A stretch of 15,547 nucleotides of DNA. Source: Elusimicrobia bacterium HGW-Elusimicrobia-2 (GTDB taxonomy: Bacteria; CG03). The notes below the pieces were generated by a model that worked only from the letters and a program-made list of their open reading frames with translations, had not been told where the DNA came from and did not search any database. Shown piece after piece: positions 11,782-15,547 of this stretch. Position 1 is the stretch's first letter, and every line of letters starts with the position of its first letter. A program made the position numbers and the translations under genes. The stretch is from NCBI GenBank assembly GCA_002841685.1, contig PHAM01000044.1, positions 1 to 15,547 of the forward strand, read 5' to 3'.

Positions 11782-12995
11782 AATTTTCAAAAATAGACGA
11801 CGCTATAAAGGATTTCCGCAGGGGGAAAATGGTTGTAATTGTTGACGACGCCGCGCGGGAAAACGAGGGTGATCTTGTGTGCGCCGCCTCAAAAATAAGC
11901 CCCGCGAAGATAAATTTTATGGCTAAGCACGGGCGGGGGCTTATATGCATAGCCATGGAAGAAAATGCGCTTGCGCGTCTGAATCTTAATCTTCTCTCGC
12001 GCAGTTTTAACGCCGCAAATCCCAGAGAAGCGGCATTTACGCTGTCCTGCGACGCTTCAAAGGGGATAAGCACTGGAATCAGCGCCGCGGATAGAGCCAA
12101 GACGGTGATGTCGCTCGTTTCTCCGTCGGCAAAACCATCGGATATAGTGTCGCCGGGGCATATTTTCCCTCTGCAGGCGCAGAAAGGCGGCACGCTCGTG
12201 CGCGCGGGGCACACGGAAGCCGCCGTGGATATGGCGAATCTCGCGGGTCTGATTCCGTCGGGCGTGATATGCGAGATAATGAATGACGACGGCACGATGG
12301 CGAGGCTTCCTGACCTGGTGAAATTCAGCGCCCTGCACGGCCTTCGTCTTATAAGTCTCGCGCAAATAATAGAGAAACGCCGGCAGACGGAAAAACTCGT
12401 GGAAAGGGTGTCCGCGGCGTCTCTCCCGACCAAGTTCGGCATGTTTACCGTTGTTTCCTACAGAAGCAAAATATCTCAGGAGGACTTTGAGAGCCGCACA
12501 CATGTGGCTCTTGTCAAAGGCGCGGTCCGAGGAAAAAAGAAAGTGCTTGTGCGGGTCCATTCGCAGTGCCTCACAGGAGATGTGTTTCATTCCTTGAGGT
12601 GCGATTGCGGAATTCAGCTTGAAGAGGCGATGAAGAAAATAGAAAAAGAAAAGTTAGGTGTGCTGCTTTATATGAGGCAGGAGGGCCGCGGAATAGGCCT
12701 TGAAAACAAGATAAAGGCATATTCTCTGCAGGACGGCGGCATGGATACCGTCGAGGCCAACGAGGCCCTCGGCTTTGAAGCGGATTTGAGGGACTACGGC
12801 ATAGGCGCGCAGATTTTGGCGGATATCGGTTTAACCACGATAAGGCTTATGACTAACAATCCCCAAAAGGTGAAAGGCCTGTCCGGTTTCGGCCTTAGCG
12901 TCGCCGAGAGAGTGCCTTTAAAAGTGGAGGGCGGTTCTGCTCATTGCCGCCATTATCTTGCGACGAAAAAAGCGAAGCTGGGGCATCTTTTATGA
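11772..12995 (+). CDS. ribBA: Bifunctional DHBP synthase / GTP cyclohydrolase II
   Basis: Supplies both precursors of the pathway: 3,4-dihydroxy-2-butanone 4-phosphate from ribulose 5-phosphate (N-terminal half) and the diaminopyrimidine from GTP (C-terminal half). The RibB half has DDAARENEGDL (25-35), GISTGISAADRA (98-109) and RAGHTEA (144-150). The RibA half has the zinc cysteines 266, 277 and 279 in SQCLTGDVFHSLRCDCG, then RQEGRGIGLENKI (302-314) and the DYGIGAQIL and TNNPQK blocks. At 407 residues both domains are complete. AAAGGAG (11754-11760) lies eleven bases upstream of the ATG. The stop at 12993-12995 is followed at once by foreign-looking sequence, and the ribH gene that often comes next is missing here. 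Confidence 0.96.
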   Translation: MAVKFSKIDDAIKDFRRGKMVVIVDDAARENEGDLVCAASKISPAKINFMAKHGRGLICIAMEENALARLNLNLLSRSFNAANPREAAFTLSCDASKGISTGISAADRAKTVMSLVSPSAKPSDIVSPGHIFPLQAQKGGTLVRAGHTEAAVDMANLAGLIPSGVICEIMNDDGTMARLPDLVKFSALHGLRLISLAQIIEKRRQTEKLVERVSAASLPTKFGMFTVVSYRSKISQEDFESRTHVALVKGAVRGKKKVLVRVHSQCLTGDVFHSLRCDCGIQLEEAMKKIEKEKLGVLLYMRQEGRGIGLENKIKAYSLQDGGMDTVEANEALGFEADLRDYGIGAQILADIGLTTIRLMTNNPQKVKGLSGFGLSVAERVPLKVEGGSAHCRHYLATKKAKLGHLL

Positions 12996-12996
12996 G

Positions 12997-13027
12997 TGGG
13001 GTCAGGTCTTGACATTAGACATATTAG
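12997..13027. repeat. GTCAGG-type repeat remnant at the edge of the accessory region
   Basis: Directly after the ribBA stop comes GTGGGGTCAGGTCTTGACAT (12996-13015). GTCAGGTCTTGAC is an imperfect palindrome. This kind of sequence is, from general experience, found in many bacterial genomes beside RAYT-type (REP-associated) transposases, but no transposase is present here. A similar motif lies at 2681-2700 in the other orientation. It marks the point where composition shifts from the housekeeping type to AT-rich. Confidence 0.4.
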
Positions 13028-13044
13028 AGTGGAGGAAAAAGGAT

Positions 13045-13413
13045 ATGCTCCCTTTTTGTCTTGATGTTAAAGGACAAGGGTTGGGTTTTAAAGAAGTTGG
13101 CAGACAATTTATTGTTGTCTTTAAGAGAAAAAAAACTGCGGAGAACATTGTCCGGAAAAGGGTCGCAGAAAATGTCCCGCCAAGGTTGGTAGAAAAGTTG
13201 GTAGAAGGGTTGGTAGAAAACCAGAAAAAAATATTTGAGTTGATGAAAGGCCGTCCCCATATTTCCAAAAGAGAATTGTCTGATGAAATAGGTATCAGCG
13301 CTACCGCTATCGATAAAAATATTATGGTGTTAAAAGAAAAAAAATTATTAAAACGCGTCGGTTCAGACAAGGGTGGTCATTGGAAGGTGGGCAAGGATGT
13401 AAGATGGAAATAA
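13045..13413 (+). pseudogene. C-terminal winged-helix fragment of an AlbA_2/Schlafen-type ATP-binding protein
   Basis: A 122-residue frame whose body matches the end of the large AlbA_2 (Schlafen-like, RecG-related) regulators. GFKEVGRQFIVVFKRKK (14-30) is the last strand region of the catalytic half. A VEKLVEGLVEN linker comes next. A winged helix follows with QKKIFELMKGRPHISKRELS (residues 63-82), then EIGISATAIDKNI and LLKRVGSDKGGHWKVG. Full-length members are about 400-500 residues, so some 300 N-terminal residues, including the nucleotide-binding part, are missing; the first ten residues (MLPFCLDVKG) do not fit the family. A GGAGG (13031-13035) stands nine bases before the ATG, so a short DNA-binding product could still be made. 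Its 3' end overlaps the next gene by ten bases, so it could have been kept as a small regulator of that pair. Confidence 0.65.
13185..13220 (+). repeat. Three tandem 12-base repeats in the AlbA_2-type fragment
   Basis: GTTGGTAGAA recurs at 13185-13194, 13197-13206 and 13209-13218, a period of exactly 12 bases. It encodes the four-residue repeat in LVEKLVEGLVEN, a linker between the two ancestral domains. The period is a multiple of three, so copy-number change keeps the frame. Confidence 0.7.
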
Positions 13414-13994
13414 CAGAGCGAATTAGGCAGTGTAAAAAATGTAATATAAAAAATTATAGGCCATTGGTATTTGGAGATCCAGTAAAAGCAAAAATTATAT
13501 TTATCAGCGAAGAGCCCACTTCTAAAGCGAGCAATTCAGATTTTTTTGAATATTATTTGGGTAGCCCCGACAAAAGATTTCATTCTGATTGGATGCGTAA
13601 AATGGGTATTACATTAAACTGGTTGAAAGAAAAACCTTATATAACGCATGTATATAAATGCTGTTCTGCAAAGAGAAATAAATATGAAAAATGTAAAGAT
13701 TATTGGTTAAGTAGAGAAAAAAAATTATTCAGCAATAAAACGATAATTACATTTGGGGAGGCAGCATTATTGGGTATTATAGAAAGACCATATAAAAGAA
13801 ATAAGTTCAGGGAATATATTCGCACATATAATGAATTACCGACGCTGGTGCGCCAAAAATCAATAATAATTCCAATAATACATCCTTCATGGAGAAATGA
13901 TAAATTTATAGATGAAAATCAAGATAGAATTGACTGGATATTAGCCCAAATAAAGAAAGAAATAAAAAAGTCAAATATGGGTATGGCAAACTGA
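13404..13994 (+). CDS. Divergent uracil-DNA glycosylase superfamily protein
   Basis: A 196-residue protein with the layout of family-4-like (iron-sulfur) uracil-DNA glycosylases. CKKC (Cys10, Cys13) opens it. LVFGDPVKAKIIFISEEPT (21-39) stands where those enzymes have FGEG...IMFVGEAPG. HVYKCCSAKRNKYEKCKDYW (82-101) supplies further cysteines (86, 87, 97), then TIITFGEAALLGI (113-125), and IIPIIHPSW (155-163) carries the conserved HPS motif. Changes in the first active-site motif (SEEPT for GEAPG) and a short Cys-to-Cys spacing make it divergent, so uracil removal is not assured; nucleic-acid base recognition is the safer inference. AAGGA (13393-13397) lies six bases before the ATG at 13404. 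It is very AT-rich, overlaps the upstream fragment by ten bases and precedes the HEPN-type gene by 15 bases. Confidence 0.72.
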   Translation: MEITERIRQCKKCNIKNYRPLVFGDPVKAKIIFISEEPTSKASNSDFFEYYLGSPDKRFHSDWMRKMGITLNWLKEKPYITHVYKCCSAKRNKYEKCKDYWLSREKKLFSNKTIITFGEAALLGIIERPYKRNKFREYIRTYNELPTLVRQKSIIIPIIHPSWRNDKFIDENQDRIDWILAQIKKEIKKSNMGMAN

Positions 13995-13996
13995 GT

Positions 13997-14004
13997 GAGG
14001 TGAT
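13997..14004 (+). promoter_or_regulatory. Strong Shine-Dalgarno of the HEPN-type gene
   Basis: GAGGTGAT is an uninterrupted eight-base match to the 16S anti-Shine-Dalgarno and lies five bases before the ATG at 14010. It is the strongest ribosome-binding site in the window, which suggests that the downstream protein is made in excess of its upstream neighbour. Confidence 0.7.
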
Positions 14005-14009
14005 AAATA

Positions 14010-15143
14010 ATGAATAAGAACAAACCAGAAAGACACAATCCTTGGGAATTATTTGAATATTCAATTGCGCATTTGAATCAAAAAAGATTAGCAACCGCTC
14101 AGGCATTCTGGGCGATGTCCTTAGAAAGTTATGTAAAATATAGATATTTTGAAAAATACAAAAAACAGCCCGAAGGAAAATTAGAATTATGGAAAATAAT
14201 TGACAGTATAAGTTCAAAAGGATCTTTCCTAAATAACACATTGCATAAACTAAGAGATAAAAGAAATGATATTATTCACGAGGGGTTTATATGTAAAGAA
14301 GAATTTGAAGATTGTTTAACCAATTTTTTGAAATTATTTGATGAGAAAAAGAAAATAGAAGAAATTAGAAAAAATGTTGATAAAGAGAGACAAACAGATT
14401 TGGCGGTGCAGTTTAAAGATAGAGTGTTTTATGATGACCTTGAATGCCAATCTATGGAATACTCGAAGATAGAAGAAAATGATTTTTATGATGATTCGAA
14501 ATTAGAAAAAAAAGTATGGAATTTAAAATACAAAATAGAATCACTTTTTAAAAAAGACAAGAAATATGGAGGTTTACAAACAGGATTGATATCTGATTTT
14601 GGAGTTTCAAGTGAATGGATATGGCTTCCTATAGGATTTGTTATTAAGAAAAAAAATAGACGTGTACGAAAAGCTGTTATCAGTATATTGATTTTCCGTG
14701 ACAGAAAGGTTCGGATATATTTGGATTTTGGGACAAATACCCAAAAAGCAAGAAAGGAATACTATAAATTATTGAAAACAGGTGCGCTAAAGGAGCAACT
14801 AAAAGAATTGATTTCAAACAATAATGAAAAAAATATGTTTTTTTGGAATGTAAAACATTATTCAATTTTTGAGAAAACAAATATTTCAATAAAAGATTGG
14901 TTGGCAGATAAAAACAGAACCAAGGTAAATGCTCTTATCAAAAATGAGATAGAAAAGAAAAATGAGAAAGAAAACTGGACTTACAAGAACAAAAGAGGGA
15001 ATATATTGCTTTTCGGATTTGAGGATGTTATTGAAAAAGAAGGTGAAAATATAGATAACTTAGCGAGAAAATATGTAGATTATGTATATAAATTGGCGCC
15101 ATTTCTTAAATTATTTGATTGGAAAAAGTGTGCTGATGAATAA
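14010..15143 (+). CDS. HEPN-like N-terminal domain protein with an unrecognised C-terminal region
   Basis: A 377-residue, lysine-rich, AT-rich protein. Residues 10-112 are helical and end in the segment LRDKRNDIIHEGF (81-93), holding R85-N-D-I-I-H90. This is the R-polar-x3-H signature of HEPN RNase domains, common in toxin-antitoxin, abortive-infection and CRISPR-linked proteins. A charged linker (115-165) follows. Residues 170-377 look like a separate alpha/beta domain: GLISDFGVSSEWIWLPIGFV (191-210), strands KAVISILIF and KVRIYLDFG, then YYKLLKTGALKEQLKEL. I do not recognise a family for it. The run YLDFGTNTQKARKEYYKLL slightly recalls modified-base or effector-sensing regions of restriction-type proteins, but that is only an impression. 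It lies 15 bases after the glycosylase-like gene. No signal peptide or membrane helix is seen. Confidence 0.7.
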   Translation: MNKNKPERHNPWELFEYSIAHLNQKRLATAQAFWAMSLESYVKYRYFEKYKKQPEGKLELWKIIDSISSKGSFLNNTLHKLRDKRNDIIHEGFICKEEFEDCLTNFLKLFDEKKKIEEIRKNVDKERQTDLAVQFKDRVFYDDLECQSMEYSKIEENDFYDDSKLEKKVWNLKYKIESLFKKDKKYGGLQTGLISDFGVSSEWIWLPIGFVIKKKNRRVRKAVISILIFRDRKVRIYLDFGTNTQKARKEYYKLLKTGALKEQLKELISNNNEKNMFFWNVKHYSIFEKTNISIKDWLADKNRTKVNALIKNEIEKKNEKENWTYKNKRGNILLFGFEDVIEKEGENIDNLARKYVDYVYKLAPFLKLFDWKKCADE

Positions 15144-15226
15144 AGCAGGAGATATAATTATGACTATCCGCCGAAAAAAATCAAAGCGCGCTGGATTCGT
15201 CGATGGAGAATCCTGCCTGCTTTATT
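15139..15226. repeat. 11-base perfect inverted repeat across the 3' ends of two converging genes
   Basis: AATAAAGCAGG (15139-15149) is the exact reverse complement of CCTGCTTTATT (15216-15226), with 66 bases between. The left arm covers the stop codon of the HEPN-type gene and the right arm lies at the hicB stop. The spacer holds no gene, apart from the hicA-like tail on the minus strand. It could be the edge of a mobile segment or a bidirectional transcription barrier; there is no adjacent T-run. Confidence 0.55.
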
Positions 15227-15261
15227 ATAGCCAAAAGTGTTTTTTTAGGTATGTTTTTTCC
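15181..15261 (-). pseudogene. Remnant of a HicA toxin C-terminus
   Basis: Read on the minus strand in the frame shifted from hicB, bases 15261-15181 encode 26 residues and a TGA. The core TLLAIIKQAGFSIDE resembles the HicA end pattern (TLRxIIRQAGISVEEF). The first 40-50 residues of HicA, including the catalytic histidine and the double-stranded-RNA-binding-like fold, are absent. The piece overlaps the last 12 codons of hicB, whereas in intact loci only the start of hicA meets hicB. A deletion that fused the two genes is the simplest explanation. The match is short and was judged by eye. Confidence 0.5.
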
Positions 15262-15446
15262 GAGGGCAGAGGATCGCCGTGTTCAATGCAGGACTCAATG
15301 AGTTTTCTCGCGACATCTTCGGCAATTTCCAGCGTTTCGGATATTGTTCTTCCCTGCGCGATAAGTCCCTGCAAAGCGGAACTTGTGGCAAGGTATCCGC
15401 CTTCCTCAAGATGTTCAATGGTAACCGGAATTAAATATTCTGACAT
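15225..15446 (-). CDS. hicB: HicB-family antitoxin (orphan, probably with altered C-terminus)
   Basis: A 73-residue protein with the HicB-like fold signature: MSEYLIPVTIEHLEEGGYLA, then GLIAQGRTISETLEIAEDVARKLIES. HicB antitoxins neutralise the mRNA-cleaving toxin HicA, and longer ones also repress their own promoter; no DNA-binding domain is seen here, as in other short HicBs. The ATG at 15446 gives the usual N-terminus. A GTG at 15458, four codons earlier, has a better placed AAGGA about nine bases upstream and may be the true start. The last residues (about TYLKKHFWL) are unlike HicB and overlap a HicA-like tail in another frame, so the protein end probably arose by deletion. No complete hicA is next to it inside the window. 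Confidence 0.8.
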   Translation of the reverse strand: MSEYLIPVTIEHLEEGGYLATSSALQGLIAQGRTISETLEIAEDVARKLIESCIEHGDPLPSEKTYLKKHFWL

Positions 15447-15477
15447 GGTTGAGTCCACTCTAATAAGTCCTTCTTGG

Positions 15478-15547
15478 TGTCATTTCGAGGAGCGTAGCGA
15501 CGAGAAATCTTTGTATTATAAGCATTTTAGATTTCTCCCTTCGGTCG
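15478..15547. repeat. Dispersed palindromic repeat, cut by the window end
   Basis: The element begins TGTCATTTCGAGG (15478-15490) and contains GAGAAATCT (15502-15510) and its exact complement AGATTTCTC (15529-15537) around an 18-base loop. It continues into CCTTCGGTCG at the window edge. The outer arms should pair once the missing right end (expected CGAAATGACA) is included. Palindromic units of this look recur in many bacterial genomes between genes. A decayed relative sits at 17-77. Confidence 0.7.

Follow-up and report, generated by a model that had tools for sequence, protein, structure and literature searches.

A low-GC gene patch behind ribBA

We analysed a 15,547-nucleotide stretch of DNA from Elusimicrobia bacterium HGW-Elusimicrobia-2 (the whole stretch is referred to below as the window), in which a pair of genes, here called gene 1 and gene 2, sits behind ribBA. 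The two genes lie on the same strand with a gap of 15 bp, their coordinates being confirmed by the list of open reading frames. GC content is 29–33% over positions 13201–15000, versus about 43–56% in the preceding genes, so the two tightly spaced AT-rich genes described in the initial annotation are borne out. The features discussed below are as follows.

13001–13033, forward strand: left junction, a REP-like repeat (GTCAGGTCTTGACATTAGACAT...) directly past the ribBA stop, recognised from its repeat copies and an inverted arm.
13081–13413, forward strand: SLFN_AlbA_2-type remnant, C-terminal winged helix only (HTH_24, 2.7e-5; PHROG).
13404–13994, forward strand: gene 1, encoding a putative divergent UDG-superfamily (family-4-like) glycosylase of 196 aa (Pfam UDG; HMM alignment).
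14010–15143, forward strand: gene 2, encoding a predicted HEPN protein of 377 aa with a C-terminal DUF1054-like domain (ORF; homologues in genomes G198, locus L005, and G053, locus L007).
14010–14345, forward strand: predicted HEPN domain of gene 2, residues 1–112 (AlphaFold model, structure comparison).
14262–14279, forward strand: R85-N-D-I-I-H90, putative HEPN RNase motif (conservation in homologues).
14457–15128, forward strand: C-terminal alpha/beta domain of gene 2, residues 150–373, with a DUF1054-like predicted fold (model, VIA).
15225–15458, reverse strand: orphan HicB-like antitoxin-type protein of 77 aa (HicB_lk_antitox match at E 0.0014, under the Pfam cut-off).
15454–15469, reverse strand: right arm of a 16-nt inverted repeat (inverted-arm match to 13018–13033).

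The 16-nt arm at 13018–13033 is the end of the left-junction repeat, and its inverted copy at 15454–15469 is identical at 15 of 16 positions, a match equalled in none of 200 shuffles. This inverted repeat, which lies on both sides of the patch, may mark the ends of a candidate element. The GTCAGGTCTTGACATTAGACAT repeat itself (window positions 13001–13022; L023–L028) is found at seven places in the same genome with at most three mismatches, at some of them as palindromic pairs (L026), and one copy (L023) adjoins a REP-associated transposase-like ORF. This dispersed repeat looks like a member of the RAYT/REP family.

Comparison with congeners showed that the ribBA–ribH interval is a variable gene site within the riboflavin operon (L019, L020, L021). 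The interval holds a whole SLFN_AlbA_2 protein in congener G001, a YhcG PDDEXK nuclease in G002, and a probable membrane protein of 525 aa in G003, which also has the same repeat junction as the left junction of the window; nothing like gene 1 or gene 2 was found in any of these three stretches.

Both smaller ORFs flanking the gene pair had been noted previously. The AlbA_2-type fragment is present with its winged-helix C-terminal end remaining, and its best PHROG match is to residues 390–481 of 485 of a 'DNA helicase' family (1e-9). The first ~85 nt of this ORF are a repeat common to congener G003 and not AlbA_2, and its last 10 nt are also the first 10 nt of gene 1, start codon included. The second ORF, 81 bp downstream of gene 2 on the opposite strand, had been called a hicB remnant; it encodes a HicB-like, single-domain protein that looks full-length. 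No ORF recognisable as HicA was found next to it, up to the contig end. The patch may extend past the contig end; the terminal window positions 15478–15547 (TGTCATTTCGAGGAGCGTAGCGACGAGAAATCT) look like a dispersed repeat. The locus showed no excess of promoter-like or terminator-like signals, so it is gene spacing alone that points to co-transcription of genes 1 and 2. PADLOC defence models matched neither gene.

Gene 1: a divergent UDG-superfamily protein

The start of gene 1 is the ATG at 13404, giving a protein of 196 aa, within an open frame that begins with a TTG at 13380. The protein falls in UDG superfamily PF03167 (Pfam E 6.2e-11; 43 bits versus a gathering cut-off of 24.3). Among named families it comes closest to family 4 and UdgX but stays far below the cut-off of either, with the NCBIfam family-4 model TIGR00758 giving 23.3 bits versus a cut-off of 125.3; among solved structures, 4zbx and 1ui0 are the closest. 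We compared gene 1 with a reference set of 32 canonical family-4 sequences, comprising 30 from the searched genomes, the copy in its own genome, and 4zbx. Residues C10xxC13, C86 and C97 match the Fe-S cysteine columns, which are Cys in 32/32 canonical sequences. The alignment also places the motif-1 Glu (E36) and the motif-2 His (H160-P-S-W), with H160 the counterpart of the catalytic H155 of Tth UDGa. By contrast, motif 1 reads SEEPT versus GE[AG]PG, and the uracil-reading Asn is replaced by H82, both features being conserved in all 32 canonical members. The UDG blocks reported initially (CxxC, a further Cys, and HPSW, with an altered first active-site motif) are all present.

The uracil pocket of Tth UDGa is formed by E41, G42, E47, F54, N80 and H155, among which E47 blocks C5-substituted bases and N80 reads uracil (PMC5387724). 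In the HMM alignment, G42, E47, F54 and N80 of Tth UDGa correspond to E37, A42, Y51 and H82 of gene 1, and gene 1 has a shorter version of the N89-bearing loop (RPPxNR). The assignment of A42 and Y51 varies with the alignment used, since the MAFFT alignment has gaps there and the region from motif 1 to PFVG is somewhat ambiguous. Gene 1 therefore shares with family 4 UDGa (Tth, 1UI0; Sulfolobus tokodaii, 4ZBX/4ZBY) the fold family, the four Fe-S cysteines, the motif-1 Glu and the catalytic His of HPx, but differs from it in the SEEPT motif, the N80-to-His, E47-to-Ala and F54-to-Tyr changes, the second and third of which carry the alignment dependence just given, and the shortened loop. The changes to the uracil-reading residues suggest that gene 1 probably excises a base other than uracil, and the fact that the genome also encodes a second, canonical family-4 UDG (C33) argues against a role in plain uracil repair.

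Brig1 and Brig3 are UDG-superfamily glycosylases that provide defence by excision of modified bases (PMC11078745, PMC13160076). In Brig1, E147 replaces the uracil-reading Asn and Y121 replaces the stacking Phe (PMC11078745). Compared by published residues, gene 1 resembles Brig1 in that the Asn site is replaced (H82) and the Phe site is Tyr (Y51), but the replacement at the Asn site is His, not Glu. Gene 1 also resembles both Brig1 and Brig3 in being a UDG-superfamily protein in a defence-type setting. Brig3 forms a two-gene glycosylase operon with BapA (PMC13160076), whereas no BapA partner was identified beside gene 1. Taking the four pocket changes together with the Brig1 and Brig3 precedents, the earlier suggestion that the UDG-fold protein handles modified or uracil-containing DNA is favoured in its modified-base part and disfavoured for plain uracil. 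From its sequence, we infer that gene 1 encodes an altered-base glycosylase.

No relatives of gene 1 were found in phages, plasmids or viral contigs, and at E ≤ 1e-8 none but gene 1 itself was found among 290 genomes. The divergent PF03167 proteins of other genomes included none close to gene 1 and none with a gene 2 relative beside it.

Gene 2: a predicted HEPN domain followed by a DUF1054-like fold

Gene 2 scores below the cut-off of every Pfam family; the named HEPN families (DUF4145, RiboL-PSP-HEPN, Cthe_2314-like) score 12.6–17 bits at best, with cut-offs of 23–28. An AlphaFold model of the full protein, built from two sequences, had a pLDDT of 63 and a pTM of 0.52. Residues 2–112 of this model gave VIA Z scores of 10.0 to 2q00_A, 9.9 to 2hsb (HEPN) and 8.8 to HepT 6m6u_G, and the listed matches to residues 1–114 with Z of at least 7.4 were largely HEPN or HEPN-MNT proteins, values to be read knowing that helical bundles easily reach middling Z and that confidence in the model is moderate. 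Foldseek gave the HEPN part probabilities of 0.95 to 6m6w_B and 0.93 to 2q00_A, with E-values of 0.4–2 that are not significant alone. The initial annotation had set a structural match of the N-terminal part to HEPN as a test, and the model does match HEPN over residues 2–112. The R-x4-H motif that had been read in this region is likewise present, with R85, N86 and H90 (R-N-x3-H, with a polar residue after R) invariant in 3/3 sequences, namely gene 2 and its two homologues. The N-terminal part of gene 2 is thus predicted, from the model, to adopt the HEPN fold with an intact putative RNase motif.

HEPN domains act in abortive infection (PMC3710099). In the predicted fold of residues 2–112 and in its R-x4-H motif, gene 2 resembles HepT of MntA-HepT and other HEPN RNases (6m6u, 5yep, 2q00, 2hsb, and AbiV 9bj7). 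Unlike HepT, gene 2 encodes one 377-aa protein with an extra C-terminal domain of ~220 residues and has no nucleotidyltransferase partner, there being no MntA-like nucleotidyltransferase gene among the ORFs at 12000–15547. This bears on the possibility that the locus is a toxin-antitoxin system with the HEPN protein as toxin and either the gene 1 product or the orphan HicB as antitoxin. The resemblance to HepT and the position of the HicB-like gene are in keeping with such an arrangement, but the lack of an MntA-like gene beside gene 2 in the window, the lack of an adjacent UDG or HicB at the gene 2 copy in G198, and the lack of any UDG-fold antitoxin in the literature searched make it quite improbable.

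We also modelled the C-terminal domain alone, again from two sequences (pLDDT 70, pTM 0.71), and re-ranked its matches with VIA. The best match was to 2a8e, with a Z score of 11.2 over 184 residues; the next best was 6.7. The 2a8e structure is of B. subtilis protein Q45498, which we take to be the DUF1054 protein YktB. A second DUF1054 structure, 3mqz, gave a Z score of 9.9 with the full gene 2 model. DUF1054/UPF0637 proteins (2a8e, 3mqz) are stand-alone, with 205–210 residues, whereas the gene 2 domain is fused behind HEPN. A weak match was also seen to a DNA-bound McrB domain (8ikd_B, Z 4.5 over 122 residues); this likeness to the modified-cytosine-binding N-terminal domain of McrB (DUF3578/ADAM; 8ikd) is one of fold, and gene 2 comes without the GTPase and without McrC.

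Sequence comparisons of the C-terminal domain gave no family. DUF1054 (PF06335) had no Pfam match to gene 2 or elsewhere in its genome, and hhalign gave it a probability of 0.4% with DUF1054 represented by a rough set of five rows, one of which (L072) was misread. McrB-N, an assignment first made by eye, received no support from BLASTP and an hhalign probability of 0.3%; the McrB-N/DUF3578 profile PF12102 had no match in the genome. Searching solved structures with a profile of the C-terminal pair returned nothing, and a viral fold library gave no significant match. Since the sequence tests were negative, the link to DUF1054 and McrB-N is one of fold similarity only. A separate genome of the same phylum (G013; L029, 406–3345) encodes a McrB-type protein with its PF12102 domain after a long N-terminal region. 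The C-terminal part of gene 2, previously described as unrecognised, still matches no sequence family, but modelling now predicts a DUF1054-like fold for it. We regard it as a candidate nucleic-acid or base reader. No paper on the function of the DUF1054 fold was found in the literature searched.

Relatives of gene 2 and the possible roles of the two genes

Relatives of gene 2 were found in two genomes besides its own among 386 (G198 and G053) and in none of 15 other genomes of its own phylum. A scan of an 84,980-species genome collection recovered only one of these two relatives, and no homologues were found in viral contigs, phages or plasmids. G198, 'Candidatus Desantisbacteria' CG1_02_49_89, carries a full-length copy that is 36% identical to gene 2 (42% in the C-terminal domain), with RhuM and ORF6N as neighbours. 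In G053, which belongs to the same phylum as G198 in the collection, the copy is broken: it consists of two pieces in different frames, with a stop present and ~80 residues missing, and its neighbours are MNT, DUF3800, a DUF2204-like ORF, RhuM and AbiEii. The presence of RhuM, ORF6N, MNT and AbiEii near the homologues, together with the variable insertion site, supports the defence-like setting proposed initially.

The initial annotation had further proposed a dedicated two-gene system, in which the UDG-fold protein would find or process modified or uracil-containing phage DNA and the HEPN RNase would then be switched on. Their shared strand, 15-bp gap and similar composition, the weak resemblance of the predicted C-terminal fold to the McrB modified-DNA reader, and the precedent of the BapA-Brig3 operon all fit this proposal. 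However, no UDG-fold gene lies near gene 2 at either of the two other loci (0/2; 14 kb examined), so a two-gene system is not supported, albeit in a small sample, and the absence of gene 1 relatives from the 290 genomes leaves nothing for the reverse comparison. The initial annotation had itself named rare adjacency of the homologues as an outcome that would count against its proposal, and on these two loci that is the outcome. We consider a dedicated system rather unlikely; the partnership may instead be facultative or recent, the sample for pairing being tiny. No paper describing HEPN and a uracil-DNA glycosylase as one system was found in the literature searched.

It is unlikely, and somewhat more so, that gene 1 is just one more DNA-repair glycosylase of the ordinary kind, acquired by chance beside an unrelated toxin or abortive-infection gene. 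The pairing is not conserved and several genomes have more than one PF03167 protein, as chance neighbours would lead one to expect, but the pocket differs at the residues that confer uracil specificity although the genome retains a canonical copy, and the genes lie in a low-GC insertion at a variable site. That the patch is a graveyard of decaying cargo in which neither gene is functional, as the truncated AlbA_2 gene, the orphan hicB and the broken G053 copy might suggest, is very improbable given that both ORFs are intact, that the HEPN motif, the Fe-S cysteines and the catalytic His all remain in place, and that the G198 copy is similar to gene 2 along its whole length.

In the reading that we tentatively prefer, at slightly less than an even chance, a strain-specific patch of defence type was acquired horizontally and inserted behind ribBA; it holds two adjacent, probably co-transcribed, separable genes. 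Gene 1 would be a glycosylase derived from family 4 that has kept the Fe-S ligands and the leaving-group His and has changed the residues that read uracil and exclude C5-substituted bases; most likely it would remove a modified pyrimidine from invading DNA, as Brig1 and Brig3 do. Gene 2 would be a HEPN RNase joined to a domain of the DUF1054 fold, whose most likely task is to sense infection through some nucleic-acid signal, and once the protein is activated its HEPN domain would cleave RNA, halting growth or phage production. The analysis itself establishes the genes, the UDG family with its residue changes, the conserved HEPN motif, the predicted folds, the context of the insertion and the lack of conserved pairing; the substrates, the co-transcription, the sensing, the RNase activity and any anti-phage role are what we infer for this patch. 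A tighter coupling, in which the glycosylase flips or removes a modified base of the phage and the DUF1054/McrB-N-fold reader of the HEPN RNase detects the modified or abasic site, after which the RNase cuts RNA and shuts the cell down, seems distinctly improbable.

The gene products are probably defence proteins against phage. Both kinds are already known, the one from UDG-superfamily glycosylases that act in defence (PMC11078745, PMC13160076), the other from HEPN effectors (PMC3710099). The novelty lies in the predicted HEPN/DUF1054-like architecture and in this specific set of pocket changes. DNA glycosylases with a defensive role form a young class, which in the literature consulted comprises Brig1 and then Brig2 and Brig3, and gene 1 offers it concrete, testable pocket changes from a poorly sampled phylum. 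Gene 2 may place the DUF1054 fold in a setting of biological conflict, which offers a route to testing the role of that fold.
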